Shown: piece after piece, positions 1,306-19,802 of the stretch
Layout: the number at the start of each line of letters is the position of its first letter
Position numbering within the stretch: position 1 is the stretch's first letter
Virus record (IMG/VR): IMGVR_UViG_3300027708_000279
Location: 1 to 24,877 of that record
Source: a virus
Strand: one strand, 5' to 3'
DNA length: 24,877 bases
Made by a program: the position numbers and the translations under genes
Notes under the pieces: generated by a model
The model's input: the letters and a program-made list of their open reading frames with translations, nothing else
Databases searched by the model: none
Told to the model about the DNA's origin: nothing

Positions 1306-1485
1306 TTATGATTTCTTTAGAATATATTCACCTGTATTCTCATCTACTGTAATTTCAATAGTATCAGTTTCGGTCCATCCGAGACGTTTGAGTAATATAG
1401 GTGGAATGGGTACTAGTAAATCACCGTTGTCATCCTCATGTACAGTGACAACATGTTTTTGTAGTGATTTCTTTTTATCGGTCAT
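1306..1485 (-). CDS. Small AbrB/SpoVT-like DNA-binding protein
   Basis: A 59-residue protein. Residues about 12-55 fit a swapped-hairpin AbrB/SpoVT (MazE antitoxin-like) domain: a GDLLVPIP strand, the LLKRLGW helix, a TDTIEI strand, and a final strand ending EYILKK. Such phage proteins are usually dimeric DNA binders, sometimes antitoxins, but no toxin partner lies next to it. I chose ATG 1485 over the in-frame TTG one codon upstream because the late-type TAAATA box (1490-1495) ends 4 bases before this ATG. There is no Shine-Dalgarno sequence, so it may be translated from a leaderless mRNA. Confidence 0.7.
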   Translation of the reverse strand: MTDKKKSLQKHVVTVHEDDNGDLLVPIPPILLKRLGWTETDTIEITVDENTGEYILKKS

Positions 1486-1489
1486 CAAA

Positions 1490-1497
1490 TATTTAGC
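1490..1497 (-). promoter_or_regulatory. T4-late-like promoter box (leaderless arrangement)
   Basis: GCTAAATA on the minus strand resembles the T4 late box TATAAATA. The TAA of the box is also the stop codon of the HAD gene (1493-1495), and only 4 bases separate the box from ATG 1485. A late start site would normally fall about 6 bases after the box, i.e. at the start codon. Confidence 0.45.
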
Positions 1498-2020
1498 AGT
1501 TTAGGTACGGCTCATAGATTTTGTTCAACTGCATTATGGTATGTTCAGTTGTTGCATCACTGTGCTTAACTGCAATGCCACCAGCCTCTGACCAACTATT
1601 TAAGTAATAATTGAAGTCATCTACTAACACATTGGGTTTACCGTCTATAGTTGCATATTGGAACTTACGTTTAGTAAAGATAGCATTTTGACTGGTTCCG
1701 GGATTAAACTCATCTAACCAGTCACGTTTTGCTCTAACACTTGCATTACCCTCATTGCGTAATGGAGCACTTAATACAGTAAATGGTATCTTGTTATCAT
1801 GTAACCATTTAACAATAACTTGTCCACCGGGTAGTGGCTTCAATACACGAAATAATTCATATGCAACCTCTGGGCCCTGTAAACTTAATTTGGTAAAAAC
1901 TTCATCGGGATTAGGTATATCATCCCAATGTTTGACCCCGCATCTAGTTGCTACTTCAGTAAATAAGTCTGCTTGGACACCGTCCATGTCTAGGTATAAA
2001 TGTGGCATGTTTAATTTCAT
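1493..2020 (-). CDS. HAD-superfamily 5'(3')-deoxyribonucleotidase-like phosphatase
   Basis: A 175-residue protein with HAD-fold motifs. Motif I is LDMDGVQAD (nucleophile D11, acid D13), motif II a serine in TVLSAP (S84), motif III probably a lysine of TKRKF (117-119), and motif IV VDDF (D134, D135). Layout and length match phage 5'-nucleotidase-like HAD enzymes that dephosphorylate (deoxy)nucleoside monophosphates, which fits a role in nucleotide recycling. Motif I has Gln where many relatives have Leu or Val. ATG 2020 is assumed; the Met five codons in (MPHLYLDMDG) is also plausible. It stands alone behind a sigma-70-like promoter. Confidence 0.8.
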   Translation of the reverse strand: MKLNMPHLYLDMDGVQADLFTEVATRCGVKHWDDIPNPDEVFTKLSLQGPEVAYELFRVLKPLPGGQVIVKWLHDNKIPFTVLSAPLRNEGNASVRAKRDWLDEFNPGTSQNAIFTKRKFQYATIDGKPNVLVDDFNYYLNSWSEAGGIAVKHSDATTEHTIMQLNKIYEPYLNC

Positions 2021-2026
2021 AACATA

Positions 2027-2055
2027 ATAGTATCATATTTTGCATACGCCAGTCA
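2027..2055 (-). promoter_or_regulatory. Probable sigma-70 promoter for the HAD gene
   Basis: On the minus strand, TTGACT is followed after 18 bases by TACTAT (2027-2032). The -35 is good and the -10 weaker (4 of 6). The predicted start site falls almost on ATG 2020, so the mRNA may have little or no leader or use the internal Met. Confidence 0.45.
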
Positions 2056-2072
2056 AATGTTTTGGGCAAAAT

Positions 2073-2080
2073 AATAAATA
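2073..2080 (+). promoter_or_regulatory. T4-late-like promoter box
   Basis: AATAAATACTAC on the plus strand upstream of the 2114 gene. The predicted leader is about 28 bases and contains the Shine-Dalgarno sequence AGGGAG. The same AATAAATACTACT string recurs at 3996. Confidence 0.6.
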
Positions 2081-2113
2081 CTACTATAATAACTATAACT
2101 TAGGGAGTTCAAC

Positions 2114-2656
2114 ATGGCAGAAGAAAAGAAACCGCTATCACGTAGCGAAAGAGAAGCATTAATCAAGGATAAAGCAGGATGGGTTATTGTCGTATTTGCG
2201 GCACTACTTGCTATCAATACCTACATGGGTGGTAGCAATAGTAGCAAGATACTAAACAATACAATTGATGCTAATAATACTTGGTCATTCTATCAAGCAA
2301 AAAGTATTAAACAAACATTGACTGAAATGCGATATGATGATGCATTGGCTGTTAAGAATACAGTACGTGCAACTGAACTAAAAGCAAAAATTGACCGTTA
2401 TGAATCTGATCCTGCAACAGGTGAGGGTAAAAAAGAGTTAATGGCCAAAGCACGTAAATTAGAAGATGACCGTGCCGTCGCAAAACAACGCAGTCCGTGG
2501 TACACATTTGCAGGCAGTTTATTTCAAATTGCTATGGTATTATTGGCAGCAAGTATATTAGCAGTTAATAATTCATTGTATAAAGCAAGTCTTTGGGTAG
2601 GCGGTGTAGCAATCATACTAATGAGCCAAGCAATTTGGCTTTGGTTACCTATCTAA
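2114..2656 (+). CDS. Membrane protein, DUF4337-like
   Basis: A 180-residue protein with a charged N-terminus, one hydrophobic segment at about 22-40, a soluble middle and two more at about 129-153 and 158-178. The middle has the NTWSFYQAKSIKQT segment, the hallmark of the DUF4337 family (W-x-x-YQAKS-x-K), then Lys/Glu-rich helices. DUF4337 proteins occur in bacteria and many phages; their function is unknown. The Shine-Dalgarno AGGGAG lies 7-8 bases before the ATG. It is the first gene of the plus-strand membrane-protein island and is followed by a hairpin. Confidence 0.8.
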   Translation: MAEEKKPLSRSEREALIKDKAGWVIVVFAALLAINTYMGGSNSSKILNNTIDANNTWSFYQAKSIKQTLTEMRYDDALAVKNTVRATELKAKIDRYESDPATGEGKKELMAKARKLEDDRAVAKQRSPWYTFAGSLFQIAMVLLAASILAVNNSLYKASLWVGGVAIILMSQAIWLWLPI

Positions 2657-2659
2657 TTT

Positions 2660-2678
2660 GATACGGCTATGCCGTATC
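2660..2678 (+). terminator. Hairpin after the DUF4337-like gene (weak terminator)
   Basis: GATACGGC-TAT-GCCGTATC forms a perfect 8-bp stem with a 3-base loop, followed only by GTTT. It may end or attenuate transcription or protect the 3' end; without a strong T run, read-through into the 2694 gene is likely. Confidence 0.5.
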
Positions 2679-2693
2679 GTTTAAGGACCCAAT

Positions 2694-3518
2694 ATGGATC
2701 CGTTTACCCTTTTTGCACTAGCTAATGGCGCAGTTCAAGCCGTCAAGAAGGGCTGCCAACTTTATAAAGACATTAAAGGTGCGGCGGGTGAAGTAAAGGG
2801 TGTACTTAAAGATTTAGATGACCAATTTCATAAAAAGTATGAGGGCAAGCCTGTTCCCGAAGCCGCAGTTAAACAATTAGCAGAAGAAAAAACCCGCGTA
2901 AAAGAACTAAACAAACGTAGTGAAGAAACTACTAATATCTATGCTGAGATTGGTGACTATCTTGGTCAATATTATGACAACTACTTCAAATGTATTGCGG
3001 TGCTTGAAGAGGAAGAAAAGCGTAGTGCTACTGAAGTATATAGTGGTGGTGATAGTCTAGCTAAACGTGCATTGAAACGTGTTCTAATGAAAAAACAATT
3101 AGAACAAATGGGTACTGAATTACGTGAACTAATGATATATCAAAGCCCGCCTGAACTGGGTGCATTGTTTACTGATGTTGAAGCCATGACCAAAGTAATG
3201 GGTGCTCAACAAAAGATTCTTGTTGCAAAACAAATGCAGGCAGAAGCTGCCAAGGCTAAAAGACGCAAAGATAGAATGGCCAAGTATCAATTTGAATTTG
3301 CATTCGGTGTTAGTATTCTTATATTGATGTTATTTATGGGTGGATTCTTTATGTGGGTAGCATACGATGCACAACAGCGTTGGGGTGGTGTTACCGGTAC
3401 AAGATATAGAGACACCTTAGAAAAAGTTAGAAAACAAGAATGGTATGAACATCAAAAGAAATTACAAGAATATGAACTTTTCTTAAAACAAAAACAAGAA
3501 AATGAATCCAGTAACTAA
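2694..3518 (+). CDS. Coiled-coil membrane protein, conserved in phages, function unknown
   Basis: A 274-residue protein. The N-terminus MDPFTLFALANGAVQAVKKG is Ala/Gly-rich and recurs in uncultured phage proteins. Residues about 30-195 are long charged helices with coiled-coil character (EEKTRVKELNKRSEE; KRALKRVLMKKQLEQM). One transmembrane segment lies at about 203-225 (FGVSILILMLFMGGFFMWVA), followed by a charged helical tail. The Shine-Dalgarno AAGGA is 6 bases from the ATG. It could be a virion-associated or inner-membrane phage protein; nothing in the sequence decides this. Confidence 0.75.
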   Translation: MDPFTLFALANGAVQAVKKGCQLYKDIKGAAGEVKGVLKDLDDQFHKKYEGKPVPEAAVKQLAEEKTRVKELNKRSEETTNIYAEIGDYLGQYYDNYFKCIAVLEEEEKRSATEVYSGGDSLAKRALKRVLMKKQLEQMGTELRELMIYQSPPELGALFTDVEAMTKVMGAQQKILVAKQMQAEAAKAKRRKDRMAKYQFEFAFGVSILILMLFMGGFFMWVAYDAQQRWGGVTGTRYRDTLEKVRKQEWYEHQKKLQEYELFLKQKQENESSN

Positions 3519-3837
3519 AACACTGTTTATTGTATTAGGATCCATACTTGGTATATTTTTAGTTCCTGTAATACTAATAGTATTTCACGATTACATTTAT
3601 GCCTTCATTGCAATAACTTCTATTGTTGCTTGTTTTTGGTTATTTGGTTACTATACCTATCAAGAGTTTTATCCAGAAATACAAAAAAGGTATTTAGAGG
3701 AAGAACAAATCTTTCATCAGTTCCATGGTGATAAAGATAAGATACGTTATTATAAGGGATTTAGAAAACACTTTGACGGGGAGTTAGATTTAGAACAATT
3801 AGAGAAATGGTTTGAACGTCATCCGCATAAAGATTAA
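3502..3837 (+). CDS. Small two-helix membrane protein, unknown
   Basis: A 111-residue protein with two hydrophobic segments (about 7-27 and 31-50), then a cytoplasmic-looking charged tail ending FERHPHKD. It overlaps the preceding gene by 17 bases with no strong Shine-Dalgarno sequence, so translation is probably coupled to it. It ends convergently against the minus-strand gene at 3834-3983 with a 4-base overlap. No family recognised. Confidence 0.7.
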   Translation: MNPVTKTLFIVLGSILGIFLVPVILIVFHDYIYAFIAITSIVACFWLFGYYTYQEFYPEIQKRYLEEEQIFHQFHGDKDKIRYYKGFRKHFDGELDLEQLEKWFERHPHKD

Positions 3838-3983
3838 TGATGACGGGTATAAAAATATACACCGGTCAGCGTGAGTACAGCCATAACAGTAAAAAATAAT
3901 ATAGCTATAGCAATAGCTAGCCAATAGTTTTCTACACCTTCAAGGTAAATACGTAATTCGTCTAATATAGATTCTTTAGCCAT
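3834..3983 (-). CDS. Very small single-span membrane protein
   Basis: A 49-residue protein with an acidic amphipathic N-terminus (MAKESILDELRIYLEG) and one transmembrane segment at about 20-44, ending YTRHH. I chose ATG 3983 over an upstream in-frame start because a late-type box (TCTAAATA at 3989-3996) ends 5 bases before it; the longer version would read through that box and the divergent plus-strand one. There is no Shine-Dalgarno sequence, so it is another candidate leaderless gene. Function unknown; size and topology would suit a lysis or exclusion accessory protein, but that is a guess. Confidence 0.6.
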   Translation of the reverse strand: MAKESILDELRIYLEGVENYWLAIAIAILFFTVMAVLTLTGVYFYTRHH

Positions 3984-3988
3984 ACTAA

Positions 3989-4003
3989 TATTTAGAATAA
4001 ATA
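3989..4003. promoter_or_regulatory. Divergent, touching T4-late-like promoter boxes
   Basis: TCTAAATA on the minus strand (3989-3996) and AATAAATA on the plus strand (3996-4003) abut each other. The minus box ends 5 bases before ATG 3983 (leaderless arrangement). The plus box is followed by a leader of about 30 bases with a GGAG Shine-Dalgarno sequence before ATG 4040. Confidence 0.55.
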
Positions 4004-4039
4004 CTACTGTAGATATAGTACTATACAAACGGAGAAACT

Positions 4040-4255
4040 ATGCCCAAAACAATTAAATCAATGCTTGATAGAATTAAGAATTTAAGTGAATTTGAGATAA
4101 CAACTGACTTACCTGACGGATTTGCATTTAACGGAGCAGTTCCGTTTGATACTAAAATCAAAGGGGATAAAGCAACCTTTACATTATTAGCATTAAACGC
4201 AAAAGAGGCAGCTGAAAAGGTAAATCAATATTTAAGCGAGAACACAGAATATTAA
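4040..4255 (+). CDS. Small soluble protein, unknown
   Basis: A 71-residue protein without membrane segments. A basic N-terminal helix (MPKTIKSMLDRIKNL) is followed by a beta-rich middle (FEITTDLPDGFAFNG) and a C-terminal helix (LNAKEAAEKVNQYL). The Shine-Dalgarno GGAGA is 5-6 bases from the ATG. A clear intrinsic terminator follows it, so it is probably a single-gene late transcript with some read-through. No family recognised. Confidence 0.7.
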   Translation: MPKTIKSMLDRIKNLSEFEITTDLPDGFAFNGAVPFDTKIKGDKATFTLLALNAKEAAEKVNQYLSENTEY

Positions 4256-4260
4256 CATTT

Positions 4261-4280
4261 GCCCCGTAAGGGGCTTTTTT
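4261..4280 (+). terminator. Rho-independent terminator
   Basis: GCCCC-GTAA-GGGGC hairpin followed immediately by TTTTTT, just after the stop of the 4040 gene. It is the clearest plus-strand terminator in the window. Confidence 0.85.
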
Positions 4281-4282
4281 AT

Positions 4283-4534
4283 ATGCGATATATAATCATA
4301 TTATCATTGATATTCATCCCGGCATTCACACTTAGTGATATGAGTGAATGTGCCAGAAAAAATACACAGGATGACAAAAATTATTGCATGGCTAAGTATG
4401 CAGGCAGTGCAACTTTTTGTGATAAAATTAAAAACTATGAACTTAGAACTCAATGTATGAGAATGGTAGTCGCAAAACAAAGAGAAGTACAATACAGTAC
4501 AATAAGACCGAAAGAAGAAAAAAAAGGAGAATAG
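4283..4534 (+). CDS. Small secreted Cys-rich protein, unknown
   Basis: An 83-residue protein. The start at 4283 (MRYIIILSLIFIPAF) gives a clear signal peptide (about 1-18); an upstream in-frame ATG at 4259 is unlikely because its first codons are the terminator stem. The mature part has four cysteines in SECARKN, NYCMAK, TFCDKI and TQCMRM, suggesting two periplasmic disulfides, and ends in a Lys/Glu-rich tail. Similar short Cys-patterned exported proteins are frequent in large phages; their role is unknown. No strong Shine-Dalgarno sequence is seen, since the terminator occupies that place. Confidence 0.65.
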   Translation: MRYIIILSLIFIPAFTLSDMSECARKNTQDDKNYCMAKYAGSATFCDKIKNYELRTQCMRMVVAKQREVQYSTIRPKEEKKGE

Positions 4535-4535
4535 C

Positions 4536-4682
4536 ATGAGTTGGTTTAAACGTAGCCCACCCAAACACCCACCATATAGAACACCTAGTGCCCCGCATAG
4601 AACTAGTCCTACTACAGAAAAAATGATGGATGAAGCAAAAAAAACTCGTCCTAAGGACATTTTGCAACGCAAATCAAACTAA
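4536..4682 (+). CDS. Small Pro/Lys-rich phage protein (MSWFKR type)
   Basis: A 48-residue protein starting MSWFKRSPPKHPPYRTPSAP. It is proline- and lysine-rich, with a short helix (TEKMMDEAKKTRPKD) near the end. Very small proteins with this MSWFKR-PPK start and an EKMxxEAKK core recur in uncultured phages; function unknown. A strong Shine-Dalgarno AAGGAGA lies 6 bases before the ATG, and the gene begins one base after the previous stop. Its TAA stop is the first three bases of the TAAATA late box for the next gene. Confidence 0.7.
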   Translation: MSWFKRSPPKHPPYRTPSAPHRTSPTTEKMMDEAKKTRPKDILQRKSN

Positions 4683-4685
4683 ATA
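4678..4685 (+). promoter_or_regulatory. T4-late-like promoter box
   Basis: ACTAAATACTAG on the plus strand, 19 bases before ATG 4705, with an AAAGGA Shine-Dalgarno sequence in the short leader. The TAA of the box is the stop codon of the preceding gene. Confidence 0.55.
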
Positions 4686-4704
4686 CTAGTTTAAAGGAAC
4701 CACT

Positions 4705-5019
4705 ATGAAAAAGTTATTAACAGTGGCGTTCCTATTCTGCCTAACTAGCTCTATAGCAAACGCCCAGGAAGTGATAGAATTGACCAAGGGAATGAAATGT
4801 TCCAATGCTGAATTTTTAATGAATTACTTTGTAACAGAGCATAAAGAAACACCAATCTGGGTTGGAAAGACCGGGTTTAATACAAATATTACATTACTAG
4901 TAAACAAAGAAAAACGCAGTTGGACTATGATAGAGTATGATGCTAGAATAGCATGTGTGATAGGTACTGGTGAAACAAGCAGTGACCCAAATTTAAGTGT
5001 AAGACTCAACACATATTGA
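4705..5019 (+). CDS. Small exported protein, conserved in phages, unknown
   Basis: A 104-residue protein with a textbook signal peptide, MKKLLTVAFLFCLTSSIANA, and predicted cleavage before QEVIEL. The mature domain (about 84 residues) has the pattern KCSNAEFLMNYF, then PIWVGK, LLVNKE, and SWTMIEYDARIACVIG, with two cysteines that may pair. This pattern recurs in periplasmic proteins of uncultured phages. Its place among other envelope proteins suggests it acts in the host periplasm; function unknown. Confidence 0.8.
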   Translation: MKKLLTVAFLFCLTSSIANAQEVIELTKGMKCSNAEFLMNYFVTEHKETPIWVGKTGFNTNITLLVNKEKRSWTMIEYDARIACVIGTGETSSDPNLSVRLNTY

Positions 5020-5031
5020 TTCACAGTCTCT

Positions 5032-5063: not shown

Positions 5064-5077
5064 AAAAAGAAGGGACT

Positions 5078-10155: not shown

Positions 10156-10184
10156 ATTATATACCCGTATTGAATTATTGTCAA
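10156..10184 (-). promoter_or_regulatory. Consensus sigma-70 promoter with repeated core
   Basis: TTGACA (10179-10184), 17 bases, TATAAT (10156-10161), all on the minus strand. The TGA of TTGACA is the stop codon of clpP (10181-10183). A 22-bp stretch covering the -10 and start site (10143-10164) is identical to 24856-24877. Confidence 0.85.
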
Positions 10185-10768
10185 CCACGCTTTGTAACTA
10201 TTTCGTCTACAAGACCATAATCAAGTGCTTGTTGGGCACTCATAAAATTGTCTCGTTCCATGTCGGCTTGTAGTACATCAAAAGTTTTACCTTTACTATT
10301 GTGCTTAACATAGATATCGGTTAGGTTCTTTTTCATAGCCATAATTTCATTGACTTGAATTAGCATGTCGGTTGCTTGACCTCTTGCACCACCTGAGGGC
10401 TGATGAATCATATGGCGTGCGTTTGGTAGCATAAAACGTTTACCAGGTGCACCTGCTTGCGCTAACAAACTTCCCATAGAACATGCTTGACCCATGACGA
10501 TAGTATGGATATCGGGCTTGACAAATTGCATAGCATCATAGATAGCCATACCTGCTGTTACGCTACCACCGGGAGAATTGATATACATACTGATATCTTT
10601 CTCGCCCTCTGATTCTAAAAATAGTAATTGGGCAACGATAAGATTTGCCATTTGGTCATGTACTTCACCCTCAAGTAAAATTACACGGTCACGCAATAGG
10701 CGACTGTAAATGTCATAACTACGTTCACCTTTGCTTGTTTGTTCAATGACGATTGGTACTAGACTCAT
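10181..10768 (-). CDS. clpP: ATP-dependent Clp protease proteolytic subunit ClpP
   Basis: A full-length 195-residue ClpP with the catalytic triad intact: S97 (GQACSMGS), H122 (HMIHQPSGG) and D173 (ERDNFMSA). The N-terminus [20 protein letters not shown] is the usual mature-like start, so little propeptide is present. ClpP forms double heptamers fed by ClpX or ClpA; the phage also encodes ClpX at 15182-16411. AAAGGAAG lies 5 bases before the ATG, and the likely promoter is an extended -10. Chimeric assembly with host ClpP is possible. Confidence 0.96.
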
Positions 10769-10830: not shown

Positions 10831-12465
10831 TTAAGGAATTTTGAATGCCAACCCACTACTTACTGGCGCTCTTGTTGCCATGTAGTTGGTGTCAGCGTTG
10901 AGTTCGATTTTACCATCGAATATGGGAGGATAAATGACCGTAAACTGAGAGAAGGCTGCCCCTCCCATAGTATCATCACCTGATGGTTTGGATGTTGTCA
11001 TACCAGTTTTTACTTGAATCATATTACTACGTTCAAGTACTGCTTTGAAAAATTGGTCTATTTTAATTGTTGTATCACTGTTAACATGATTAGCTACTTT
11101 TTTGGCTAGTGCTGCCAATAAATGCCAACCACAACTATAACCAGGGTCGTTGTAATTTTTAGCACCCTTAATTTTTATTAAATTATGTAGATTTTTCGTA
11201 ATGACTTTTTTCTGTAAAGCTACGTCAGGATGTACACCCTTCCCTCGTTTAATCATGTCAAGAATCATTTCTGCTTCTTGTCTATTAATGAATCCAAATT
11301 CAAACTCTGCCAAATACAAAGGACCGTTAATACCCATATTACCTTGAACCGATACTTGTTGTTTGAAGGTACTGTGTTTCTTGTTATTATCGGTGCGTGT
11401 TTTTGGAATAACTGCCCCTGTTTTAGGATTCTCCTGTCTTTCAAAATCTGCCTTTCCACTATGCCAATATATGGGCGGGGGTTTAGCAATGATTTTTATT
11501 AGCCTGTACGCTTTAGTGAATTTTTTAGTAACTTCAGCATAACGCTCTGGATTCATTGCAATATCATCTACGATACCTGCAACACTAGCGGCTGCACCAC
11601 CTTTTTTATCTTTACTACTGATATTAATTTTGATTTCATCTGTCACATAGATAAAACTATCATACAAGTTAAAGTTACCTTCATCAGGGTACTCAACTTT
11701 TGACAAATCACGCCATGTTAAATTATAAGGTGCAAGTAGTGCTTTTTCTGCCAATGCATAACCAGAACCAACTGCTAAATTACCAGTAATCAATGATACA
11801 GGAGCAGCAACTTCTCCAAAGTCTACTTCTAAACTTCCTATGTAATCTGCTAAACCTGGAATAGGAGTTTTGTCACCTTTGGCAATATGGTCAATTAATT
11901 GTGAAAGTCCGTTACGTAAATTTTCATCTAAGTCTTGTCTATTTGCAACAATCTGTGCCACTGATTGTGCAATAGTATTTACATCTAATGGTTGATTCGT
12001 GGGTATTGTTCTATTTGGCTTTAAATTTAATGTAGCACGTTGAGCTACTTTAGTTTTTGCACCATAACCGGATACTTTGCTAAAATCCTTATTAGCCCAC
12101 ATGATCGGTGCAGGTTTTCCTTCTTCTGCTTTACTTTTAACTAATTTTATATAAGCAACGTGTTTTTCATTTGCATTATCATACCAAACTGTGACAAGTG
12201 CGGCACCTGGATTTTTTGTTACGCCACTTACATGAATATCTTCGGGCGCAACATTAACATCTGCTAGATATTGCATGTAATCTTGTTCTAATTCTTCGGA
12301 ACTCAAATATGGTGGTTGATTATTATCAGGAAATAATTGAGTTCCTAATAACTGTATTTCTTGGTTGTCTTTATTGGCAAATTGTATATTGGCGCCCATT
12401 TCTACTTCTTGGCCACGTCTATAAATTCCGCCCTGGGATTCTTGTAAAAATTCAAATGCTCTCAT
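10831..12465 (-). CDS. Large conserved-looking phage protein, unknown (possible virion or nuclease-like)
   Basis: A 544-residue protein. I chose ATG 12465 (MRAFEFLQESQGG) because a late-type box ends 7 bases before it and the ATG at 12513 would start inside the upstream gene. No membrane segment or signal peptide. In the middle is DEGNFNLYDSFIYVTDEIKI followed by NISSKDKKGGAAAS; the D-x-x-x-E-x-K then S-S-K pattern loosely resembles a PD-(D/E)xK nuclease core, and a K-ISSK-x3-GGAAAS motif recurs in proteins of other large phages. Sequence before and after is unfamiliar. A structural protein or internal virion enzyme fits late expression; this is inference. Confidence 0.75.
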   Translation of the reverse strand: MRAFEFLQESQGGIYRRGQEVEMGANIQFANKDNQEIQLLGTQLFPDNNQPPYLSSEELEQDYMQYLADVNVAPEDIHVSGVTKNPGAALVTVWYDNANEKHVAYIKLVKSKAEEGKPAPIMWANKDFSKVSGYGAKTKVAQRATLNLKPNRTIPTNQPLDVNTIAQSVAQIVANRQDLDENLRNGLSQLIDHIAKGDKTPIPGLADYIGSLEVDFGEVAAPVSLITGNLAVGSGYALAEKALLAPYNLTWRDLSKVEYPDEGNFNLYDSFIYVTDEIKINISSKDKKGGAAASVAGIVDDIAMNPERYAEVTKKFTKAYRLIKIIAKPPPIYWHSGKADFERQENPKTGAVIPKTRTDNNKKHSTFKQQVSVQGNMGINGPLYLAEFEFGFINRQEAEMILDMIKRGKGVHPDVALQKKVITKNLHNLIKIKGAKNYNDPGYSCGWHLLAALAKKVANHVNSDTTIKIDQFFKAVLERSNMIQVKTGMTTSKPSGDDTMGGAAFSQFTVIYPPIFDGKIELNADTNYMATRAPVSSGLAFKIP

Positions 12466-12472: not shown

Positions 12473-12480
12473 TATTTATC
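12473..12480 (-). promoter_or_regulatory. T4-late-like promoter box (leaderless arrangement)
   Basis: GATAAATA on the minus strand, ending 7 bases before ATG 12465, in the 19-base gap after the SprT stop. No Shine-Dalgarno sequence; it also decides the start of the downstream gene. Confidence 0.55.
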
Positions 12481-12484: not shown

Positions 12485-12958
12485 TTATGCTTTAAATAAA
12501 TCTTGTTTGTCAAACCATTGTCTGGCAGAATAGCTTACTTTTAAAGAGATATTGTGTCTGTATAGACTTAACTGGTATCTATAAAAACTAGGACCATGAC
12601 TCATAACTCTAGTCTTACGTCCGTGACTGTAAATGTCCCATTGATATTGATGACTCATTTCATGTGCTAACATAGTAACCATCCATTGTATACAGTACCA
12701 TTTATCGCTTAACTTGATTCTACAGTAAGTCCCGTTGTTATAGGGCTTTTCTTCCCCATAACACATACCCCAGTATTCACGGCACTTGCCCAACTTAATG
12801 TTGGGCCTAATTAATACATTATTGAAAACTTGCTCATTTAGCAAATCATAGACATGTTCTACATCCTGTAAGTCTGGTCTAAATAGTAGTCTTTTTTGCG
12901 CGGTACGGGTGGGTAAGGGTGTATCCATTAATTCTCGCAATGATAAGGACTTGAACAT
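12485..12958 (-). CDS. SprT-like zinc metalloprotease
   Basis: A 157-residue protein with the SprT/Spartan-like pattern: H99-E100-x-x-H103 (LAHEMSHQYQWD) and a third ligand, probably H121 (SHGPSFYRY). Upstream is an N-terminal helix and a beta-rich stretch with GKCREYWGMCYG. Spartan-type enzymes cleave proteins crosslinked to DNA; bacterial SprT and phage versions are less studied. The ATG lies 5 bases after a perfect TATAAATA late box and has no Shine-Dalgarno sequence, so the mRNA is probably leaderless. SprT-like proteases are frequent in large phages. Confidence 0.88.
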   Translation of the reverse strand: MFKSLSLRELMDTPLPTRTAQKRLLFRPDLQDVEHVYDLLNEQVFNNVLIRPNIKLGKCREYWGMCYGEEKPYNNGTYCRIKLSDKWYCIQWMVTMLAHEMSHQYQWDIYSHGRKTRVMSHGPSFYRYQLSLYRHNISLKVSYSARQWFDKQDLFKA

Positions 12959-12963: not shown

Positions 12964-12971
12964 TATTTATA
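12964..12971 (-). promoter_or_regulatory. Perfect T4-type late promoter box (leaderless arrangement)
   Basis: TATAAATA on the minus strand, identical to the T4 late consensus, ending 5 bases before ATG 12958. With T4 spacing, the transcript would start on the A of the ATG. Confidence 0.7.
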
Positions 12972-12996
12972 AAAAATACGCTTGGAAACCTATCAT

Positions 12997-13004
12997 CATA
13001 AATA
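12997..13004 (+). promoter_or_regulatory. T4-late-like promoter box
   Basis: CATAAATATTATTG on the plus strand, 21 bases before ATG 13026, with a strong TAAGGAG Shine-Dalgarno sequence in the short leader. It is divergent from the box at 12964-12971. Confidence 0.55.
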
Positions 13005-13025: not shown

Positions 13026-13331
13026 ATGGAAATTATTGTAATTATTGCTGTTGTATTAATTGCTTATGCAATCTATACACAGTACACTAAACCTACTGAA
13101 TCAACAGAACCTACTAAGGTGGATGAAGTTGCTAAGGAAGTTGTTGCTGAGGTTAAAACCGAAGTTAAAGCAGAAGTAGCCGCTGTAAAAGAAGTTGCTA
13201 AAAAGACTACCGCCCGTGTTAAAAAAGCATTGGACGTTAATCAAGATGGCAAAGTTGATGCTAAAGACGCAGTTGCTGCCGTTAAAAAAGTAGCCGCTAA
13301 AACTGCAAAGCCTAAGGCTGTTAAAAAATAA
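13026..13331 (+). CDS. Membrane-anchored Ala/Lys-rich protein with EF-hand/dockerin-like motif
   Basis: A 101-residue protein. An N-terminal membrane segment (IIVIIAVVLIAYAIYTQY) is followed by a Thr/Pro linker, then a long Val/Ala/Lys/Glu-rich helix. Then comes LDVNQDGKVDAKDAVAAVK, which carries the D-x-N-x-D-G-x-V-x3-D spacing of a calcium-binding EF-hand or dockerin loop. The C-terminus is Lys/Ala-rich. A single loop may bind Ca2+ or be structural only. It is a short late-type transcript with a strong Shine-Dalgarno sequence, probably abundant. Function unknown. Confidence 0.78.
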   Translation: MEIIVIIAVVLIAYAIYTQYTKPTESTEPTKVDEVAKEVVAEVKTEVKAEVAAVKEVAKKTTARVKKALDVNQDGKVDAKDAVAAVKKVAAKTAKPKAVKK

Positions 13332-13374: not shown

Positions 13375-13382
13375 TTTAAATA
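13375..13382 (+). promoter_or_regulatory. T4-late-like promoter box (leaderless arrangement)
   Basis: TTTAAATACTAT on the plus strand, with the box ending 4 bases before ATG 13387. No Shine-Dalgarno sequence is possible in this spacing. Confidence 0.5.
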
Positions 13383-13386
13383 CTAT

Positions 13387-14082
13387 ATGAATTTAAGTTT
13401 TGATGTTATTAGCGATTTAAATCTGACTGCTGAAGATGACTTCAATTGGTCGGATAAAGTTACCGGACTATTCTGTCTCGTACCCGGAAATATAAGTAGT
13501 GATTATACGGTTGTGCAAAGGACACTAAGCTACCTTTCTAAGCTTTATAAAGGTGTGTTCTATATTGACGGTGAATTAGAACACGCGGATGACTATAAAA
13601 ATAAATCTGATAATGTAGACTTGTTGACGCAAATTTGTAGTGCTATTCCTAATGTAGTTTATCTACATAGTAGTGTTACAGTTATGAATGGTGTAGCAGT
13701 TATCGGTGTTAATGGTTGGTACAAATCACACAAAGATTTAGGTTTATTAGAAAGCGGATACATCAGTTCCTATATGTATGATGACCTAGCATATTTGAAT
13801 AACACTATAAAAAAACTTCAATTGCACATGGAAGTCAAAGATATTATTGTTATGAGCAGTTCTATCCCAGACAAACAATTATATTACGGTAATGACAAAA
13901 ATGAACTTGAAGAATTATGTCTTACAACCTGTGTAGTAGCAGACACAGAAAAGAAAATTAAACACTGGGCTTACGGTACTTATGAAATGGCGAATGCCAA
14001 CTTAAGTGGCATTCAGTTTATTTCAAATCCTCGTAACGGTAAAGATCCGTATTATGCTAAGTGCATAAATCTACAGTTTTAA
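13387..14082 (+). CDS. Degenerate metallophosphoesterase-like protein, probably catalytically inactive
   Basis: A 231-residue protein that follows the layout of the active phosphoesterase at 8821 but has lost its metal ligands. SDLH becomes SDLN (D10, N12); GD becomes GN (G34, N35); GNHE becomes DGELE (61-65); the GHHSP position reads SSSIPD; WTHGHTH becomes WAYGTYE; the CNPRGY end is kept as SNPRNG. The fold is therefore probably retained without hydrolysis, pointing to a binding or structural role. I know similar inactive relatives in other phages. The late box is directly upstream, with no Shine-Dalgarno sequence. The end overlaps clpS convergently by 4 bases. Confidence 0.78.
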   Translation: MNLSFDVISDLNLTAEDDFNWSDKVTGLFCLVPGNISSDYTVVQRTLSYLSKLYKGVFYIDGELEHADDYKNKSDNVDLLTQICSAIPNVVYLHSSVTVMNGVAVIGVNGWYKSHKDLGLLESGYISSYMYDDLAYLNNTIKKLQLHMEVKDIIVMSSSIPDKQLYYGNDKNELEELCLTTCVVADTEKKIKHWAYGTYEMANANLSGIQFISNPRNGKDPYYAKCINLQF

Positions 14083-14384
14083 CCCTCAGGTTCAATTTTA
14101 ACTTGTAACGGATATCCTGCACTACGTGCTGATACGGTCACCTCAATACCCTTTTGTTCTGCAATCTCATAGGGCATTACTGCTACTACAGCACTTCCTG
14201 CTTCGTGTATATTTTGTGTAATATTATGAGCAGTATCAATTGTATAATTAAAAAAATCAACCAATGTCTCTATGACAAAATCAGCCGTAGTTGTTTCATC
14301 GTTCATGTAAATTACTCTAAACATGGGAGGCTCTGCAATAGTTAAGTCGGGTTTAATAGTAACTTTAATTTCTGATTGTGACAT
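14079..14384 (-). CDS. clpS: ClpS-like N-degron adaptor of Clp protease
   Basis: A 101-residue ClpS-family protein. After a short N-terminal tail (1-18) comes PPMFRVIYMNDETTTADFVIE, matching the ClpS signature with N28-D29-E30 at the substrate-binding site, then a helix with NITQNIHEAG (H60 at the conserved His position), VMPYEIAE and AGYPLQV. ClpS normally delivers proteins with destabilising N-termini to ClpA. The phage encodes ClpX and ClpP nearby but no ClpA here, so it may use host ClpA or a changed partner. The leader has a late-type box and a 10-bp hairpin, plus an AAGGT Shine-Dalgarno-like sequence. Confidence 0.9.
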   Translation of the reverse strand: MSQSEIKVTIKPDLTIAEPPMFRVIYMNDETTTADFVIETLVDFFNYTIDTAHNITQNIHEAGSAVVAVMPYEIAEQKGIEVTVSARSAGYPLQVKIEPEG

Positions 14385-14443: not shown

Positions 14444-14887
14444 TCACTTTATATAAGTGATAGCAATTGATTTGGGCTTTTGGTCTTCGGGTACTTTACG
14501 TTCTAAATCTAAAACTAAAATACCATCACGCATAATAGCCCCAATAATCTCTACATGTTCGGCTAATGTCCAATTGCGAACAAAATCACGGGCACTGATA
14601 CCACGATGTAGATATTCTACATTATTTGGTACAGGGTCTTTTTGTGATCCTGAAATCGTAAGTATGTTCTTTTCAACTGTTACATCAACTTCACCTTGTT
14701 TAAAACCCGCAACTGCAACTTCAATGGTGAAATGGTCTTCATCAATTTTAATTACATTATATGGGGGATAATTAGTTTGTTGTTGAGCGGTTGCTCTAAG
14801 TAACTCATCAATAACAGATTCAAATCCTATTCCGAATTTGTTAATTGTTGGTATGTCGAAGGAACGTAATGTTAAAGTGTTTGTCAT
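14444..14887 (-). CDS. hsp20: Small heat-shock protein Hsp20 (IbpA-like)
   Basis: A 147-residue alpha-crystallin-domain protein. The N-terminal arm ends at NYPPYNVIKIDEDHF; the core (about 40-135) has IEVAVAGFKQGEVDVTVEKN, ISARDFVRNWTLAEHV and the DGILVLDLER strand; the tail ends KSIAI, with an I-x-I-type motif. These features are typical of IbpA-like ATP-independent holdases. Related Hsp20 genes are widespread in T4-like cyanophages, where a virion-assembly role is discussed. A strong AAGGAG Shine-Dalgarno sequence precedes the ATG, and a late-type box is 65 bases upstream. Confidence 0.95.
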   Translation of the reverse strand: MTNTLTLRSFDIPTINKFGIGFESVIDELLRATAQQQTNYPPYNVIKIDEDHFTIEVAVAGFKQGEVDVTVEKNILTISGSQKDPVPNNVEYLHRGISARDFVRNWTLAEHVEIIGAIMRDGILVLDLERKVPEDQKPKSIAITYIK

Positions 14888-14994: not shown

Positions 14995-15210
14995 TTAGAA
15001 TAATTTTTTGGGAAGTAGTTGTTCTTGCAACTTCTTTTTCCAACGGCGTTTAGCTTGACTTTTAGCTAACTTTCTTTTGATGGTGGGTTTGATAAATTCT
15101 TGACGGTCACGAACCTCTTGAAGAAGTCCGGAGTCAGCCACTTTCTTCTTAAATTTACGAAGGGCTTTCTCTACTTGATTATCATGTACTATTACTTTTT
15201 TTCCTGTCAT
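14995..15210 (-). CDS. rpsU: Ribosomal protein bS21 homologue
   Basis: A 71-residue, highly basic protein, the usual bS21 length. It has the pattern VIVHDNQVEKALRKFKKKVA, then SGLLQEVRDRQEFIKPTIKR (the bS21 G-L/V-L-x-E-V-R-x-R-x-x-F-x-K-P core), then KRKLAKSQAKRRWKKKLQ. bS21 sits on the 30S head near the anti-Shine-Dalgarno end of 16S rRNA and affects start-site recognition. The gene overlaps the clpX 3' end by 29 bases and has its own perfect TATAAATA box inside clpX. No clear Shine-Dalgarno sequence precedes the ATG. Phage bS21 copies are known in pelagiphages and huge phages. Confidence 0.93.
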   Translation of the reverse strand: MTGKKVIVHDNQVEKALRKFKKKVADSGLLQEVRDRQEFIKPTIKRKLAKSQAKRRWKKKLQEQLLPKKLF

Positions 15211-16411
15211 TTGTAAATATTTTCGGGTTTAACACCTGCTCTCTATTTATATTTAGCTTTTTGGTATCATTTTCCTTGTATCTACGAACATGGAACATAT
15301 GCGGCATCAATACACGCTCAATTTCAGTATGCAATCCACGTGCCCCGGTCTTTAATTCTACTGTATTTTCAGCAATTTGCTCTAGTGCATCTTCCGAGAA
15401 TTCTAGGTCAATATCGTCTAATTTGAACAAATACTTATACTGTGCAGTATAGTTGTTTTTAACGTCAGTAAGTACTTGGATCAACTGTTCTTTGTTCAAA
15501 TTGCTAATACTAACTGATGTGGTGAACCGACCGATAAACTCAGGAATCATACCAAACTTAGTTAAGTCATCAGGCATGACTTTGCTTAAATCACCTTCAA
15601 GTTTAGTGTCTTTGATATTAGCACTAAAGCCAATACTGGTTCCACTAAGTCTATTGCTGATAATATCTTTCAATCCTACAAAAGCACCACCTGCAATGAA
15701 TAGGATATTCTTTGTATCAATCTCGGTCATATCATTGCCGGGATGCTTGCGACCACCACCTGAGGACACTCTGCAAACAGTGCCTTCTACCAGCTTAAGC
15801 AATGCTTGTTGTACACCTTCACCTGATACGTCACGTGTAATGCTAGTACTTTCGCCTTTACGTGCAATTTTATCAATCTCATCAATAAAGATAATACCCT
15901 TTTCGGCTTTCTTGATATCACCGCCGGCGGCATTGACTAACATGTTAATCATTGATTCAACATCATCACCTACGTAACCGGCTTCTGTTAAGCTTGTTGC
16001 GTCTGCTACTACAAAAGGAACTTTAAGATACTGTGCTACTGTTTTAGCAAGCAATGTTTTACCTGAACCAGTTGGTCCAATAATCAATACATTACCCTTT
16101 TGTATCTCTAAGTCTTTTGGTGGATGCGTGATTCGTTTATAGTGATTACTGATAGCTACACTTAGTACAATCTTAGCTTGCTCTTGTCCAATGACACGCT
16201 CATCTAAATATGCTTTGATAGCCTCAGGATCATAATCTATACTAGATTCTTTTTTCGTTGGGGGAGTTTTAGGGTCCTCTAAAATCAAGTCTTGGCACAA
16301 CTCAATACACTCACTGCATATTGCCGCTGATTCACTGACTATTAATTTTTCGACTAACTCTTTACTCGTCCCGCAAAAACTACAATGGTTCAGTTTGATT
16401 TCTTCTGTCAT
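15182..16411 (-). CDS. clpX: ATP-dependent protease ATPase subunit ClpX
   Basis: A 409-residue full-length ClpX. It has an N-terminal zinc-binding domain (C10, C13, C32, C35), Walker A GPTGSGKT at 112-119, Walker B FIDEID at 175-180, pore loop GYVG at 145-148, RKH loop at 221-223, the ClpP-docking IGF at 260-262, and sensor-2 region KTGARGL near the C-terminus. All signatures are intact, so it should be an active unfoldase that can dock ClpP (phage or host). It follows the two lipoproteins in one operon (gap 12 bases) and has no good Shine-Dalgarno sequence. It could target host regulators or host defence proteins for degradation; targets are unknown. Confidence 0.97.
   Translation of the reverse strand: MTEEIKLNHCSFCGTSKELVEKLIVSESAAICSECIELCQDLILEDPKTPPTKKESSIDYDPEAIKAYLDERVIGQEQAKIVLSVAISNHYKRITHPPKDLEIQKGNVLIIGPTGSGKTLLAKTVAQYLKVPFVVADATSLTEAGYVGDDVESMINMLVNAAGGDIKKAEKGIIFIDEIDKIARKGESTSITRDVSGEGVQQALLKLVEGTVCRVSSGGGRKHPGNDMTEIDTKNILFIAGGAFVGLKDIISNRLSGTSIGFSANIKDTKLEGDLSKVMPDDLTKFGMIPEFIGRFTTSVSISNLNKEQLIQVLTDVKNNYTAQYKYLFKLDDIDLEFSEDALEQIAENTVELKTGARGLHTEIERVLMPHMFHVRRYKENDTKKLNINREQVLNPKIFTNDRKKSNST
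15244..15251 (-). promoter_or_regulatory. Perfect T4-type late promoter box inside clpX, for bS21
   Basis: TATAAATAGAG on the minus strand, 34 bases upstream of the bS21 start, within clpX coding sequence. It gives bS21 its own late transcription apart from the clpX operon. Confidence 0.65.
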
Positions 16412-16423
16412 CTAGTACTTATC

Positions 16424-17455
16424 TTAGTACTGACACTTGCCATTAATTTTCTTGCTGTTGTCAACCAATGACACTTCTACTCGTTTCATTTGTTTAGCTG
16501 AAAACTTGCTTAATGGAATATTTGCACGATTATCCTCACCCCACATAATTGCATCTAATTCAAAACCCCAGCCATTGTTTTCGGTATAAACGGGAACTCC
16601 TGCATCGGGTAAATATATCTGTGAATAAAGTACGTTATCACTTACATCATATACATTTACACGAATTTTGAAAGCATAACCACACTCACCCATTAGTTTG
16701 TCTTTAACCAGCCTAGGTGTTTCCATATCTGAGAAAAAATAATGATGCATACTTGGGATAATGCTACGGTCGGGCACGTATTTAACATTAAATTTAGGTT
16801 CTCGGGAACAACCGCCTACCAATTGATTAGCTACCGTTACTTCACATTTTTCTTCTAACTTTGATAGTGTGTAGTTTAGAGCCTTAAGAAAATCACTATT
16901 CATGGTTATATTATATTTTACAACCATATATGTTTCACGATTATCTTTGACATATTCAATTGGATATTGCTCTAATTTATAGGCGCGTTTTACATAATCA
17001 GTAAAAAATCCATTGATAACTTTGTCACTACGACCCTTACCATCTAGGTATGTATTGACTTGTGTGCTTACTTTGTTGCCATTTAAATCTTTAGAATCTG
17101 TTGGATTGTTAAAGATATATTGATTAACCATGCTGGGTTTAACAGTAGCGGTCAATTTCACAGTACAACCTGAACCGTTCTTTTCAGTATTCAGTATGGT
17201 ATAATCTTCAATAAAACCACTGCTGTGACTTAATACCTCGTCACGGGTCAGAACATCATTTTTTACTTGACGTTCTGCCATGACTGCGGTACCGAATGCT
17301 TGTTCTACTGCAATACGAAACGCAACATCTCTTGCTTTGTCACAGGTGCTATCTGCACCAGTGACATTATAAGGACCATATGTTTTGCTTGCAGGGGATG
17401 AGGCACAACCATATATCGCAATAGAACATATTGCGGCTATTGCTAGTGATTTCAT
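16424..17455 (-). CDS. Lipoprotein with FlgT-like N-terminal domain
   Basis: A 343-residue protein with a signal peptide and lipobox IYGC (Cys17), so probably outer-membrane attached. Residues about 35-110 (KARDVAFRIAVEQAFGTAVM, then SGFIEDYTILNTE and TVKLTATVKP) resemble the N-terminal domain of FlgT and related LPP20-like proteins, which bind near the flagellar motor or outer membrane. The remaining 230 residues are beta-rich and unrecognised, with Cys pairs. It overlaps the smaller lipoprotein's stop (ATGA). A phage lipoprotein of this type could act in the host envelope; role unknown. Confidence 0.75.
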   Translation of the reverse strand: MKSLAIAAICSIAIYGCASSPASKTYGPYNVTGADSTCDKARDVAFRIAVEQAFGTAVMAERQVKNDVLTRDEVLSHSSGFIEDYTILNTEKNGSGCTVKLTATVKPSMVNQYIFNNPTDSKDLNGNKVSTQVNTYLDGKGRSDKVINGFFTDYVKRAYKLEQYPIEYVKDNRETYMVVKYNITMNSDFLKALNYTLSKLEEKCEVTVANQLVGGCSREPKFNVKYVPDRSIIPSMHHYFFSDMETPRLVKDKLMGECGYAFKIRVNVYDVSDNVLYSQIYLPDAGVPVYTENNGWGFELDAIMWGEDNRANIPLSKFSAKQMKRVEVSLVDNSKKINGKCQY

Positions 17456-18081
17456 TGCATTGCTTTAAGGAGTTGCTTACGTGATGTACCGCTTTCAACG
17501 TCCCAACGAATAGTAACTGCGACTTCTTGGTCACCAACCACTCGTTCATCAACTTTAACAAAGCCACTCAAAATAGCTTTAGCTGATGTTTGGATATTCT
17601 CAGTAAGAGAAACGACTGTATCATTGTGGTTTTCACGCAATGATATTTTGCTTGCTTCCTTATCGGTCAATTCAACTGTAGATTCATCTGCATTACCAGA
17701 TTTAACCTTATCAGAAGCCTTTTCAATATTTTTAGCAATAGTATTTTGCACACGGTTGCTAGTAACTTCTTCATTCAAGAATCGTGCGACTTGAGCCTGT
17801 GCATTCATTTCAGCTTTGGTCAATGCAGTTTTACGATTTGATGTAGTGTTACCAAATGTAGCCGCTGTGCCGGTAGCCTCGATAGCAGACACATGACATT
17901 CGTCCTTACCAAATAAGGACCAACTGCATTTAGTCTCAATTTTAACTTTCTCGCCAACAAATGATGTAGAAAGCTTTTGATTAGCAATCGGAGTATTAGT
18001 ATTCGTACCGTTGCTGGTTTTCATACTAGAACATGCAGTCAATGACAGGGCAATGACTAGTGCAGACAATTTAAGTTTCAT
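17452..18081 (-). CDS. LPP20-like lipoprotein
   Basis: A 209-residue protein. I chose ATG 18081 (MKLKLSALVIALSLTACSSM), with a lipobox LTAC and AGAGG 5 bases upstream, over a start 20 codons earlier that would cross the promoter. After the Cys the mature part has a Ser/Thr/Asn linker, a CSWSLFGKDECHVSAIEATG segment, then Ala/Gln/Lys-rich helices (LTKAEMNAQAQVARFLNEEV) and a beta end (VDERVVGDQEVAVTIRW). This layout is typical of LPP20-like lipoproteins. First gene of the operon that continues to clpX. Confidence 0.8.
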   Translation of the reverse strand: MKLKLSALVIALSLTACSSMKTSNGTNTNTPIANQKLSTSFVGEKVKIETKCSWSLFGKDECHVSAIEATGTAATFGNTTSNRKTALTKAEMNAQAQVARFLNEEVTSNRVQNTIAKNIEKASDKVKSGNADESTVELTDKEASKISLRENHNDTVVSLTENIQTSAKAILSGFVKVDERVVGDQEVAVTIRWDVESGTSRKQLLKAMQ

Positions 18082-18112
18082 AAAAACCTCTAAGTAGTTA
18101 AACAATAAAGAT

Positions 18113-18141
18113 AGTATAGCACCAAAGCTATTTAATGTCAA
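18113..18141 (-). promoter_or_regulatory. Strong sigma-70 promoter for the lipoprotein-clpX operon
   Basis: TTGACA (18136-18141), 17 bases, then TGCTATACT (TATACT at 18113-18118, extended -10) on the minus strand. It implies early expression of the lipoproteins and ClpX. Confidence 0.82.
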
Positions 18142-18161
18142 TGTTTTTTTGAGATTTTGGG

Positions 18162-19787
18162 TTAACCGTTATTGATATGTGTTTGGATAGCATCCATTTC
18201 CACTTCAGTTAGGATATCAGGATCAACTTCCCCGGTACTGATTTTTTCTACTAAATGCTGTACATAATTAGTATTACTTAAATAGGTATCAGAATTTTCA
18301 CGACCGATATCTATCCATTTTGCTCCGTTGAATTTATAGACTCGGTGAGGCATAGAATCGGTACGCACATAAATATCACTAATAGCAGAATACTCAGGGA
18401 ATGTTGTTCCAAAGTTTACTTTTTGTGTATTTGTAAAGAACTCAGGGTGTAGTTCCTTTAGGGCTTCGGTATGCATACGTTTACCTTCAAATTCAACATA
18501 TTCACCTTGTAACCTTCTGAAAGATTCTTTAGTAACACCCTCGGCATCTGGAATATCATCAACTACTGGTTGTGCAACTTCTTCAACGACTGGCTCGGTA
18601 ACATCAGGTAGTATTTTGAACCCTTCTCTTAGACCTTCTTCTGGATAATTCATGGGCCAACGATTCTTTATTGGCTTGGGTTCTTCTGCAATTGCAATCT
18701 CAACTTCTGTGCCATTGATGTTGTCAATTACATCACATTCCTTGTTAGGGCAGTATGGTCCGATACCAGGTGCTATTTGTAATTCAGTGTCACATTTTGG
18801 GCAACGTTCTACAATTTCTTGTACTACAATTGGGTCAACAACATAATTAAAGTCATTGGGTACATATTGCTCAGTATCTAATGGCTTATCGTCAAATCCA
18901 GGAAAAGGCCAAGCTGCCTTGGGCAGATTATCCGGAGGGGTTATGGTTTCTTCTATAGCCTCGTCAACTGGTTCTTCAACAGTTTCAGTAACTGGTTGTT
19001 CAACCATAGAACGATATTTGTTCTCACGATCCTCTTTGATCCATTCCATTTGCTTATTAGCGGCAAGAATCAAACACAGTGCTAGTGGGTCAAATACAAC
19101 AACAATAAGAATAATAACCCAACGTACTGCTCGTTCTAATACATTAGAGTCTGGATTATCACCATAAATTAACGCCGCGATATACTTAATTGGCCCAACT
19201 TCTGCTTCGACTTTACGTACCTCGGCGGCAATAGGCGCACGTGCATCGTTAAGTTCCGCAATAAGCTTCTGCGACTGTGATATTTCAGCTTGAAGTCTAA
19301 TACGCTCTTTCTGCTGGGTTTTTCTAAGAGCCACAGCTTTGTCGGCACCTTTTTCATCTGTTGAGCGGCCCAGTACAGAGTCCACTCCCTCATCCATTTG
19401 TTTAAGTACTTTACGGTTGGACTCAATATTCTCTTTTTGGGTTTTGATTTTTTCATCATATATTGCAACTTTGCTTTGTACGTCACCACTTACTAGAGTT
19501 TGGTCACTATGTGCTTTAGATAAAAATCCAAAGATTCCCATACTCGTTAGTAACATTAAGAATAAAATAGCTGGGATCAAATAACTTTTATAAACCCAGT
19601 TAATTCGTCTCCAGTTGTTGTGTAGCCAAACAGTGGCAACGACTTTACCTAATTCAAGTGTCGCACCCATAATGATAACAGGTATCACAGCCGCCGCAAA
19701 GATTGCGGTTAAGCCTGCGATTGAGTAATAAGCGGCAACCACACTAAGCATTAGTGCAGTTAAAAACATTGTAAATGCGAATATCAT
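18162..19787 (-). CDS. Large membrane coiled-coil protein with a zinc ribbon, unknown
   Basis: A 541-residue protein. Three hydrophobic segments lie in the first about 90 residues (FTMFLTALMLSVVAAYYSIA; IFAAAVIPVIIMGATLEL; YLIPAILFLMLLTSMGIFGF), then a long charged coiled coil (about 95-200), a fourth membrane segment (VIILIVVVFDPLALCLILAA), acidic low-complexity sequence, a four-Cys zinc ribbon (CPKCDTELQIAPGIGPYCPN), and a C-terminal domain with SMPHRVYKFNGAKWIDIG, similar to motifs of small tail proteins. Similar proteins recur in pelagi- and cyanophages. ATG 19787 lies 7 bases after a late box. Function unknown; a virion or membrane-remodelling role is possible. Confidence 0.8.
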   Translation of the reverse strand: MIFAFTMFLTALMLSVVAAYYSIAGLTAIFAAAVIPVIIMGATLELGKVVATVWLHNNWRRINWVYKSYLIPAILFLMLLTSMGIFGFLSKAHSDQTLVSGDVQSKVAIYDEKIKTQKENIESNRKVLKQMDEGVDSVLGRSTDEKGADKAVALRKTQQKERIRLQAEISQSQKLIAELNDARAPIAAEVRKVEAEVGPIKYIAALIYGDNPDSNVLERAVRWVIILIVVVFDPLALCLILAANKQMEWIKEDRENKYRSMVEQPVTETVEEPVDEAIEETITPPDNLPKAAWPFPGFDDKPLDTEQYVPNDFNYVVDPIVVQEIVERCPKCDTELQIAPGIGPYCPNKECDVIDNINGTEVEIAIAEEPKPIKNRWPMNYPEEGLREGFKILPDVTEPVVEEVAQPVVDDIPDAEGVTKESFRRLQGEYVEFEGKRMHTEALKELHPEFFTNTQKVNFGTTFPEYSAISDIYVRTDSMPHRVYKFNGAKWIDIGRENSDTYLSNTNYVQHLVEKISTGEVDPDILTEVEMDAIQTHINNG

Positions 19788-19794
19788 AACTATA

Positions 19795-19802
19795 TATTTA
19801 TC
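19795..19802 (-). promoter_or_regulatory. T4-late-like promoter box (leaderless arrangement)
   Basis: GATAAATATATAG on the minus strand, ending 7 bases before ATG 19787; no Shine-Dalgarno sequence. The same GATAAATA, 7-base, ATG layout occurs at 12473. Confidence 0.55.

Follow-up and report, generated by a model that had tools for sequence, protein, structure and literature searches.

Why a probable late promoter should abut a start codon is the question raised by a 24,877-base viral fragment from IMG/VR (record IMGVR_UViG_3300027708_000279; this whole stretch of DNA is called the window below), in which six genes carry the late-type box TAAATA just before their ATG. Late promoters of phage T4 have a TATAAATA box and depend on gp55, gp33, and gp45. 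We consider it very probable that the six boxes are likewise gp55-type late promoters, predicted to give leaderless late mRNAs. A megablast search against phages returned no DNA match to cultured phages for the window. The six boxes, with the gap given as the number of bases between TAAATA and the start codon, are as follows.

1490..1495, minus strand: late-type box TAAATA, reading GCTAAATA, gap 4 to the ATG at 1485
3989..3994, minus strand: late-type box TAAATA, reading TCTAAATA, gap 5 to the ATG at 3983
12473..12478, minus strand: late-type box TAAATA, reading GATAAATA, gap 7 to the ATG at 12465
12964..12971, minus strand: perfect T4-type late box TATAAATA, TAAATA core at 12964-12969, gap 5 to the ATG at 12958
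13377..13382, plus strand: late-type box TAAATA, reading TTTAAATA, gap 4 to the ATG at 13387
19795..19800, minus strand: late-type box TAAATA, reading GATAAATA, gap 7 to the ATG at 19787

On re-location, all six boxes and gaps listed in a preliminary description of the window proved exact. Its caution that an AT-only word should recur often by chance was justified, as TAAATA occurs 40 times against 43.5 expected from dinucleotide composition and TATAAATA twice against 3.6; with word totals at the chance level, the claim rests on position only. Among 49 gene starts listed by hand, six have TAAATA at a gap of 4 to 8, compared with 0.48 on average in 2000 dinucleotide shuffles, not one of which reached six (Poisson, 1e-5), while none has it at 9 to 14 and four have it at 15 to 27. 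The reported absence of Shine-Dalgarno sequences also holds (0 of the 6 genes, compared with 21 of the 49). Two perfect TATAAATA boxes had been credited to this set; the one at 12964-12971 belongs there, but the other lies outside the six, before the leadered gene for ribosomal protein bS21. Two boxes of the leadered kind provide the contrast.

15244..15251, minus strand: second perfect TATAAATA, overlapping another TAAATA at 15250-15255, 33 nucleotides before the ATG at 15210
12999..13004, plus strand: leadered-class late-type box, gap 21 to the ATG at 13026, with the Shine-Dalgarno sequence aaggag between

Two late boxes on opposite strands stand back to back, 3 nucleotides apart, at 3989-3994 (minus) and 3998-4003 (plus), adjoining the genes that start at 3983 and 4040, and a wider divergent pair of boxes spans 12964-13004.

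The gap was measured more broadly in eight related genomes (1.8 Mb; 2,161 genes; 37-46% guanine plus cytosine [GC]), whose genes were called with a hexamer coding model and a choice of start that was blind to upstream sequence. Results revealed a bimodal distribution, with 141 boxes at a gap of 4 to 8 (the close class), 6 at 9 to 14, and 183 at 15 to 27 (the far class), over a background of 2.8 to 3.3 per position. The preliminary description had proposed comparing position with an off-position control over whole genomes; run on the relatives, this comparison passes strongly, with 141 close boxes against ∼14 expected. Because kinship of the eight genomes raises the raw numbers, the figures were dereplicated by ortholog, and with one gene per ortholog cluster they become 56.9, 1.7, and 72.1 for the three ranges, against 1.07 per position. 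A second set of 80 loci, picked by the presence of gp55 and not by the box, gave 50, 1, and 107. When every hexamer was scanned at every gap, Shine-Dalgarno words ranked at the top, followed by TAAATA at a gap of 5 (55 against 3.1), which is also the modal gap in the relatives. Other words of the same letters lack such a peak, with the partial exceptions of ATAAAT and AAATAT, which overlap the box. Plain pattern counts over whole genomes are less specific than these gap counts at called starts. Among same-strand gene pairs lying 7 to 11 nucleotides apart in the relatives, the upstream stop codon is TAA in 86 of 106; in 23 of those TAA-stop pairs, the TAA is the first half of TAAATA, so that promoter and stop codon share bases. 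In the window, the TAA of the box at 1490..1495 also ends the reading frame of the upstream gene at 1493-2020.

The two classes also differ in their translation signals. In the eight relatives, a Shine-Dalgarno sequence precedes 2 of the 141 close-class genes and 119 of the 183 far-class genes (Fisher, 4e-38), and the gp55-picked loci repeat this split (1 of 50 and 82 of 107). The start codon is ATG in 140 of the 141 close-class genes, compared with 1962 of 2161 overall (p, 3e-5). Another late box lies upstream in just three of the 141, and a -35 element accompanies 15 of the 141 close boxes, at or below the random level. In the leadered class, an A-rich stretch opens at the fifth base past the box, which is compatible with, and no proof of, a transcription start at the sixth. 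The T4 late box begins at -13 (PMC2988020); it thus ends at -6 and leaves 5 nucleotides to +1, so that, with the modal gap of 5, transcription would start with the A of the ATG.

Promoters of the sigma70 type behave in the same way at a spacing of their own. TATAAT peaks beside starts in the eight relatives, at a gap of 6 in 29 genes and of 5 to 8 in 46 genes, with a second peak at 29 to 31. At least four of the six bases of TTGACA occur 16 to 18 base pairs away in 37 of the 46 genes, compared with 16% at random positions, and a Shine-Dalgarno sequence was found in none of the 46. A gap of 6 is the canonical distance from a sigma70 -10 element to +1. These promoters (TTGACA-17-TATAAT) constitute a second predicted leaderless class, absent from the preliminary description. 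That both promoter types keep their respective canonical distances from the ATG points to transcripts beginning there and is hard to explain otherwise.

In the mechanism that we propose, a gp55-type (T4-like) late promoter would set the transcription start on, or no more than ∼3 nucleotides from, the A of the AUG, and ribosomes would bind the 5'-terminal AUG of the late mRNA without Shine-Dalgarno pairing. Each promoter class would come in two designs, either abutted to the ATG or some 10 to 25 nucleotides further back with a Shine-Dalgarno sequence in a short leader; the distances between these designs would be avoided, and the sigma70-type promoters do split likewise. The empty zone at 9 to 14 is as expected if any leader that is present needs room for a Shine-Dalgarno sequence. 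The scheme supposes that RNA polymerase with gp55 would start 5 nucleotides after the box, as in T4, that the 5' end would stay unprocessed, and that the host ribosome would accept a leaderless mRNA. The position of the boxes, the bimodal gap, the lack of Shine-Dalgarno sequences, the strictness of the ATG, the conservation among orthologs, and the presence of gp55 (described below) can all be read from the sequence itself and support the leaderless late mRNAs advanced in the preliminary description.

The conservation among orthologs concerns the six genes of the window as well as those of the relatives. The six predicted leaderless genes are as follows.

1306..1485, minus strand: 59 amino acids, AbrB/MazE-like small protein (phrog_661, E 3e-12; PF04014 just under the cut-off)
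3834..3983, minus strand: 49 amino acids, likely one membrane helix; the gene itself is uncertain
10831..12465, minus strand: 544 amino acids, without known family or relatives
12485..12958, minus strand: 157 amino acids, SprT-like metallopeptidase (PF10263)
13387..14082, plus strand: 231 amino acids, with orthologs in genomes G008, G016, and G002
18162..19787, minus strand: 541 amino acids, N-terminal membrane protein; relatives with box

The reality of the gene starting at 3983 is the least certain of the six. A search for relatives of the 544-amino-acid protein found none, and a pattern scan of viral contigs confirmed none for the 59-, 49-, and 231-amino-acid proteins. For the 541-amino-acid gene, IMG/VR contigs as long as 524 kb yielded at least 80 relatives. 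TAAATA lies 4 to 7 nucleotides before an in-frame ATG in 74 of 80, or in 48 of 52 when each distinct upstream sequence is counted once, while the sequence beyond the box differs among them. Weaker homologs of its product occur in Pelagibacter phage Mosig, Stenotrophomonas phages CM1 and RAS14, Xanthomonas phage XacN1, and Salicola phage SCTP-2. The SprT-like gene has its box at a gap of 4 in four relatives (81-84% identity) and of 5 in one (51%), and the three orthologs of the gene at 13387 have theirs at a gap of 6. Genome-wide, ortholog pairs of less than 60% identity agree in belonging to the leaderless class in 56 cases, against 10.6 expected. Close-class products in the relatives include virion structural proteins, the portal, the large terminase, a baseplate wedge, and an endolysin, the last four being late functions, as well as radical-SAM proteins and metallo-phosphoesterases; tail fibers and other structural proteins are found in the leadered class.

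Several other explanations of the boxes were weighed against leaderless late mRNAs. Chance would be a natural suspicion for an AT-only word in an AT-rich genome, in a pattern that an earlier reader had picked out, and both TAAATA and TATAAATA do occur in the window about as often as chance predicts; yet no window shuffle reproduced the six close boxes, and the tenfold excess comes from relatives which that reader had not seen. The dereplicated and gp55-picked counts refute chance as well, words spelled with the same letters lack the pattern apart from the two that overlap the box, and it persists in relatives at 45-46% GC, so that we give this explanation practically no credence. It is also extremely improbable that the start codons were mis-called and that the real ones lie downstream, behind a leader and a Shine-Dalgarno sequence. 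Start calling is fallible without ribosome data, but a Shine-Dalgarno-led in-frame start within 14 codons downstream occurs in only 2 of the 141 close-class genes (1.4%), compared with 4% of other genes, and proteins of the 19787 family align from residue 1 to 3 in nearly all relatives.

The box might instead be no promoter and serve on a longer mRNA as an A/U-rich translation-initiation element, either a site for S1 or a Kozak-like context; other upstream contexts are used by some bacteria that lack Shine-Dalgarno sequences, the Bacteroidetes, according to one report (PMC6847099). An RNA element of this kind would not jump, whereas the exact word recurs at 15 to 27 with a Shine-Dalgarno sequence between and leaves 9 to 14 empty; moreover, the sigma70 TATAAT with its -35 element at 17 base pairs repeats the pattern at a gap of 6, and box genes stand unusually often at divergent boundaries, which no mRNA from upstream reaches (24% of close-class genes are divergent to their neighbor, compared with 7% of box-less genes). 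We regard such an element as very improbable. Operon-internal promoters or relics, with translation proceeding mainly by coupling on polycistronic mRNAs from further upstream, would fit the 23 of 140 boxes that overlap an upstream TAA stop codon, and also the short median distance of 15 nucleotides between genes on the same strand. This explanation is nonetheless improbable, as 33 of the 140 boxes are divergent, 32 lie in intergenic spaces of 40 nucleotides or more, coupling would neither empty the 9-to-14 zone nor demand ATG, and orthologs keep the box and its spacing while the flanks change.

Other points weigh against leaderless late mRNAs as the explanation of the six boxes. The sequence supports the case well, but a search with phrog_234 found no gp55 in the 25-kb fragment that forms the window. 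For the 23 genes whose box overlaps an upstream TAA, a longer mRNA is possible. A gap of 7, as before 12465 and 19787, predicts a 2-nucleotide leader and not strict leaderlessness, and a gap of 4 requires a 1-nucleotide shift in start choice. Furthermore, the gene caller was simple and home-made, misplaced some starts, and missed the start at 19787 itself.

The late sigma factor gp55 (phrog_234) was detected in relatives G001 to G005, of 264 to 525 kb (E, 1e-21 to 1e-24), and in phages XacN1, RAS14, SCTP-2, HTVC008M, Mosig, and Syn9; the same search did not find it in G006 to G008 or in shorter contigs, which may be fragments. Alignment showed a conserved block common to the gp55 of this family and that of XacN1. 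The family gp55 is ∼300 to 340 amino acids long (L117:975-1871 and L150:642-1658), compared with 185 in T4, and its conserved sigma2-like block is preceded by ∼130 additional residues that are missing from XacN1 gp55. The phages of this family are large and mostly uncultured. Among cultured phages, XacN1 has 12 late boxes at a gap of 4 to 8, 9 of them at exactly 5 (a count that holds one sequence twice, probably in the terminal repeats), plus 10 of the sigma70 type; HTVC008M has 13, with 8 at exactly 5; and Mosig has 6, with 5 at exactly 5, a signal that is weaker over its own background. By contrast, T4 and the marine cyanophages Syn9 and S-PM2 have no box at a gap of 4 to 8 before called starts and 13 to 16 boxes at 15 to 27. 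RAS14 has only 4 close boxes. RAS14 and XacN1 share the gene order around the homolog of the 541-amino-acid protein, and the leaderless class is clear in XacN1 only, which makes them a natural pair for the study of its gain or loss.

In gammaproteobacteria, leaderless genes occur mainly in Xanthomonadales and Legionellales and are missing from most others, while many cyanobacterial genomes use neither the leaderless nor the Shine-Dalgarno signal (PMC3160421). The distribution of close boxes among the phages roughly matches this pattern, and the contrast with T4 and the cyanophages hints that the trait may track how far the host itself relies on leaderless genes. Host order alone is ruled out as the explanation by RAS14, with its few boxes despite an XacN1-like gene order. 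The ribosomal protein bS21 is encoded by most family members and by HTVC008M, Mosig, SCTP-2, and Mel-JY01, and was not found in T4, Syn9, S-PM2, KVP40, XacN1, or RAS14; phage bS21 may tune ribosomes late in infection. As a cause of leaderless use it correlates imperfectly and is retained as an idea only, as XacN1 and G003 have leaderless genes without detected bS21, and the reverse holds for SCTP-2 and Mel-JY01. A wider proposal, to which we attach a rather low probability, is that in large gp55-bearing phages both sigma70-type and late transcription would be partly leaderless and that ribosomes would be shifted toward such mRNAs late in infection, for instance by phage bS21, giving two separately tunable gene classes.

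Other genes of the window lie among these boxes. A small protein with an EF-hand/dockerin-like stretch, DVNQDGKVDAKDAV, is encoded at 13026-13331 (plus strand), with a leadered late box upstream, and the bS21 gene is located as follows.

14995..15210, minus strand: ribosomal protein bS21 gene, with a leadered late box upstream (PF01165, E 5e-16)

ClpP, ClpS, Hsp20, and ClpX are encoded at 10181-10768, 14079-14384, 14444-14887, and 15182-16411, all on the minus strand, and together form a complete phage Clp protease set, adaptor and small heat-shock protein included. ClpX adjoins the homolog of the 541-amino-acid protein in SCTP-2, much as in the window, and ClpS is likewise found in that neighborhood. 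The best matches of ClpP (∼64%) are mostly from Proteobacteria, including a Rhodanobacter and Rickettsiales, and are not decisive for the host.

Taken singly, leaderless mRNA and T4-type late promoters are already known, as are -10-adjacent genes (Deinococcus-Thermus; PMC12340547). One phage paper calls phage transcripts "often leaderless," with reference to work on the binding of leaderless mRNA in Escherichia coli (PMC5312081). Open-access full texts yielded no account of leaderless T4-type late mRNAs; subscription papers may hold earlier reports. The text of the XacN1 genome paper does not mention promoters. If true, a phage-wide leaderless class made through a late sigma factor and including portal and terminase would mean that Shine-Dalgarno selection is bypassed for part of the virion program. 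A practical rule would also follow for such genomes, that TAAATA ending 4 to 8 nucleotides before an ATG marks the start, and the cultured phages XacN1 and HTVC008M make the leaderless reading directly testable.

Compared with known systems, the family resembles T4 in its late promoters, with the same box, no conserved -35 element, a gp55 homolog, late structural genes, and an equal inferred spacing to +1 (PMC2988020), and differs from T4, Syn9, and S-PM2, whose boxes lie further upstream, in having a common abutted class without Shine-Dalgarno sequences. The freshwater phages that encode bS21 (PMC9723584) are similarly large phages with a ribosomal protein acting in initiation; they were assigned to Bacteroidetes hosts, whereas the phages here use Shine-Dalgarno sequences strongly elsewhere, and the text of that paper mentions neither promoters nor leaderless mRNA. 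The cI mRNA of phage lambda likewise starts at its AUG (PMC9031893; PMC3160421), but it comes from one repressor gene in a temperate phage, whereas in these large phages dozens of genes in each genome, virion genes among them, would be leaderless. In the TANNNT-led genes of Deinococcus-Thermus (PMC12340547) and the TA-led genes of bacteria (PMC3160421), a -10 element also lies a few base pairs before the ATG with no Shine-Dalgarno sequence, and the genes are similarly organized in two classes, leaderless or Shine-Dalgarno led. Those genes are cellular and served by host sigma factors, whereas here a phage lineage combines a late-sigma-type box with sigma70-type promoters.

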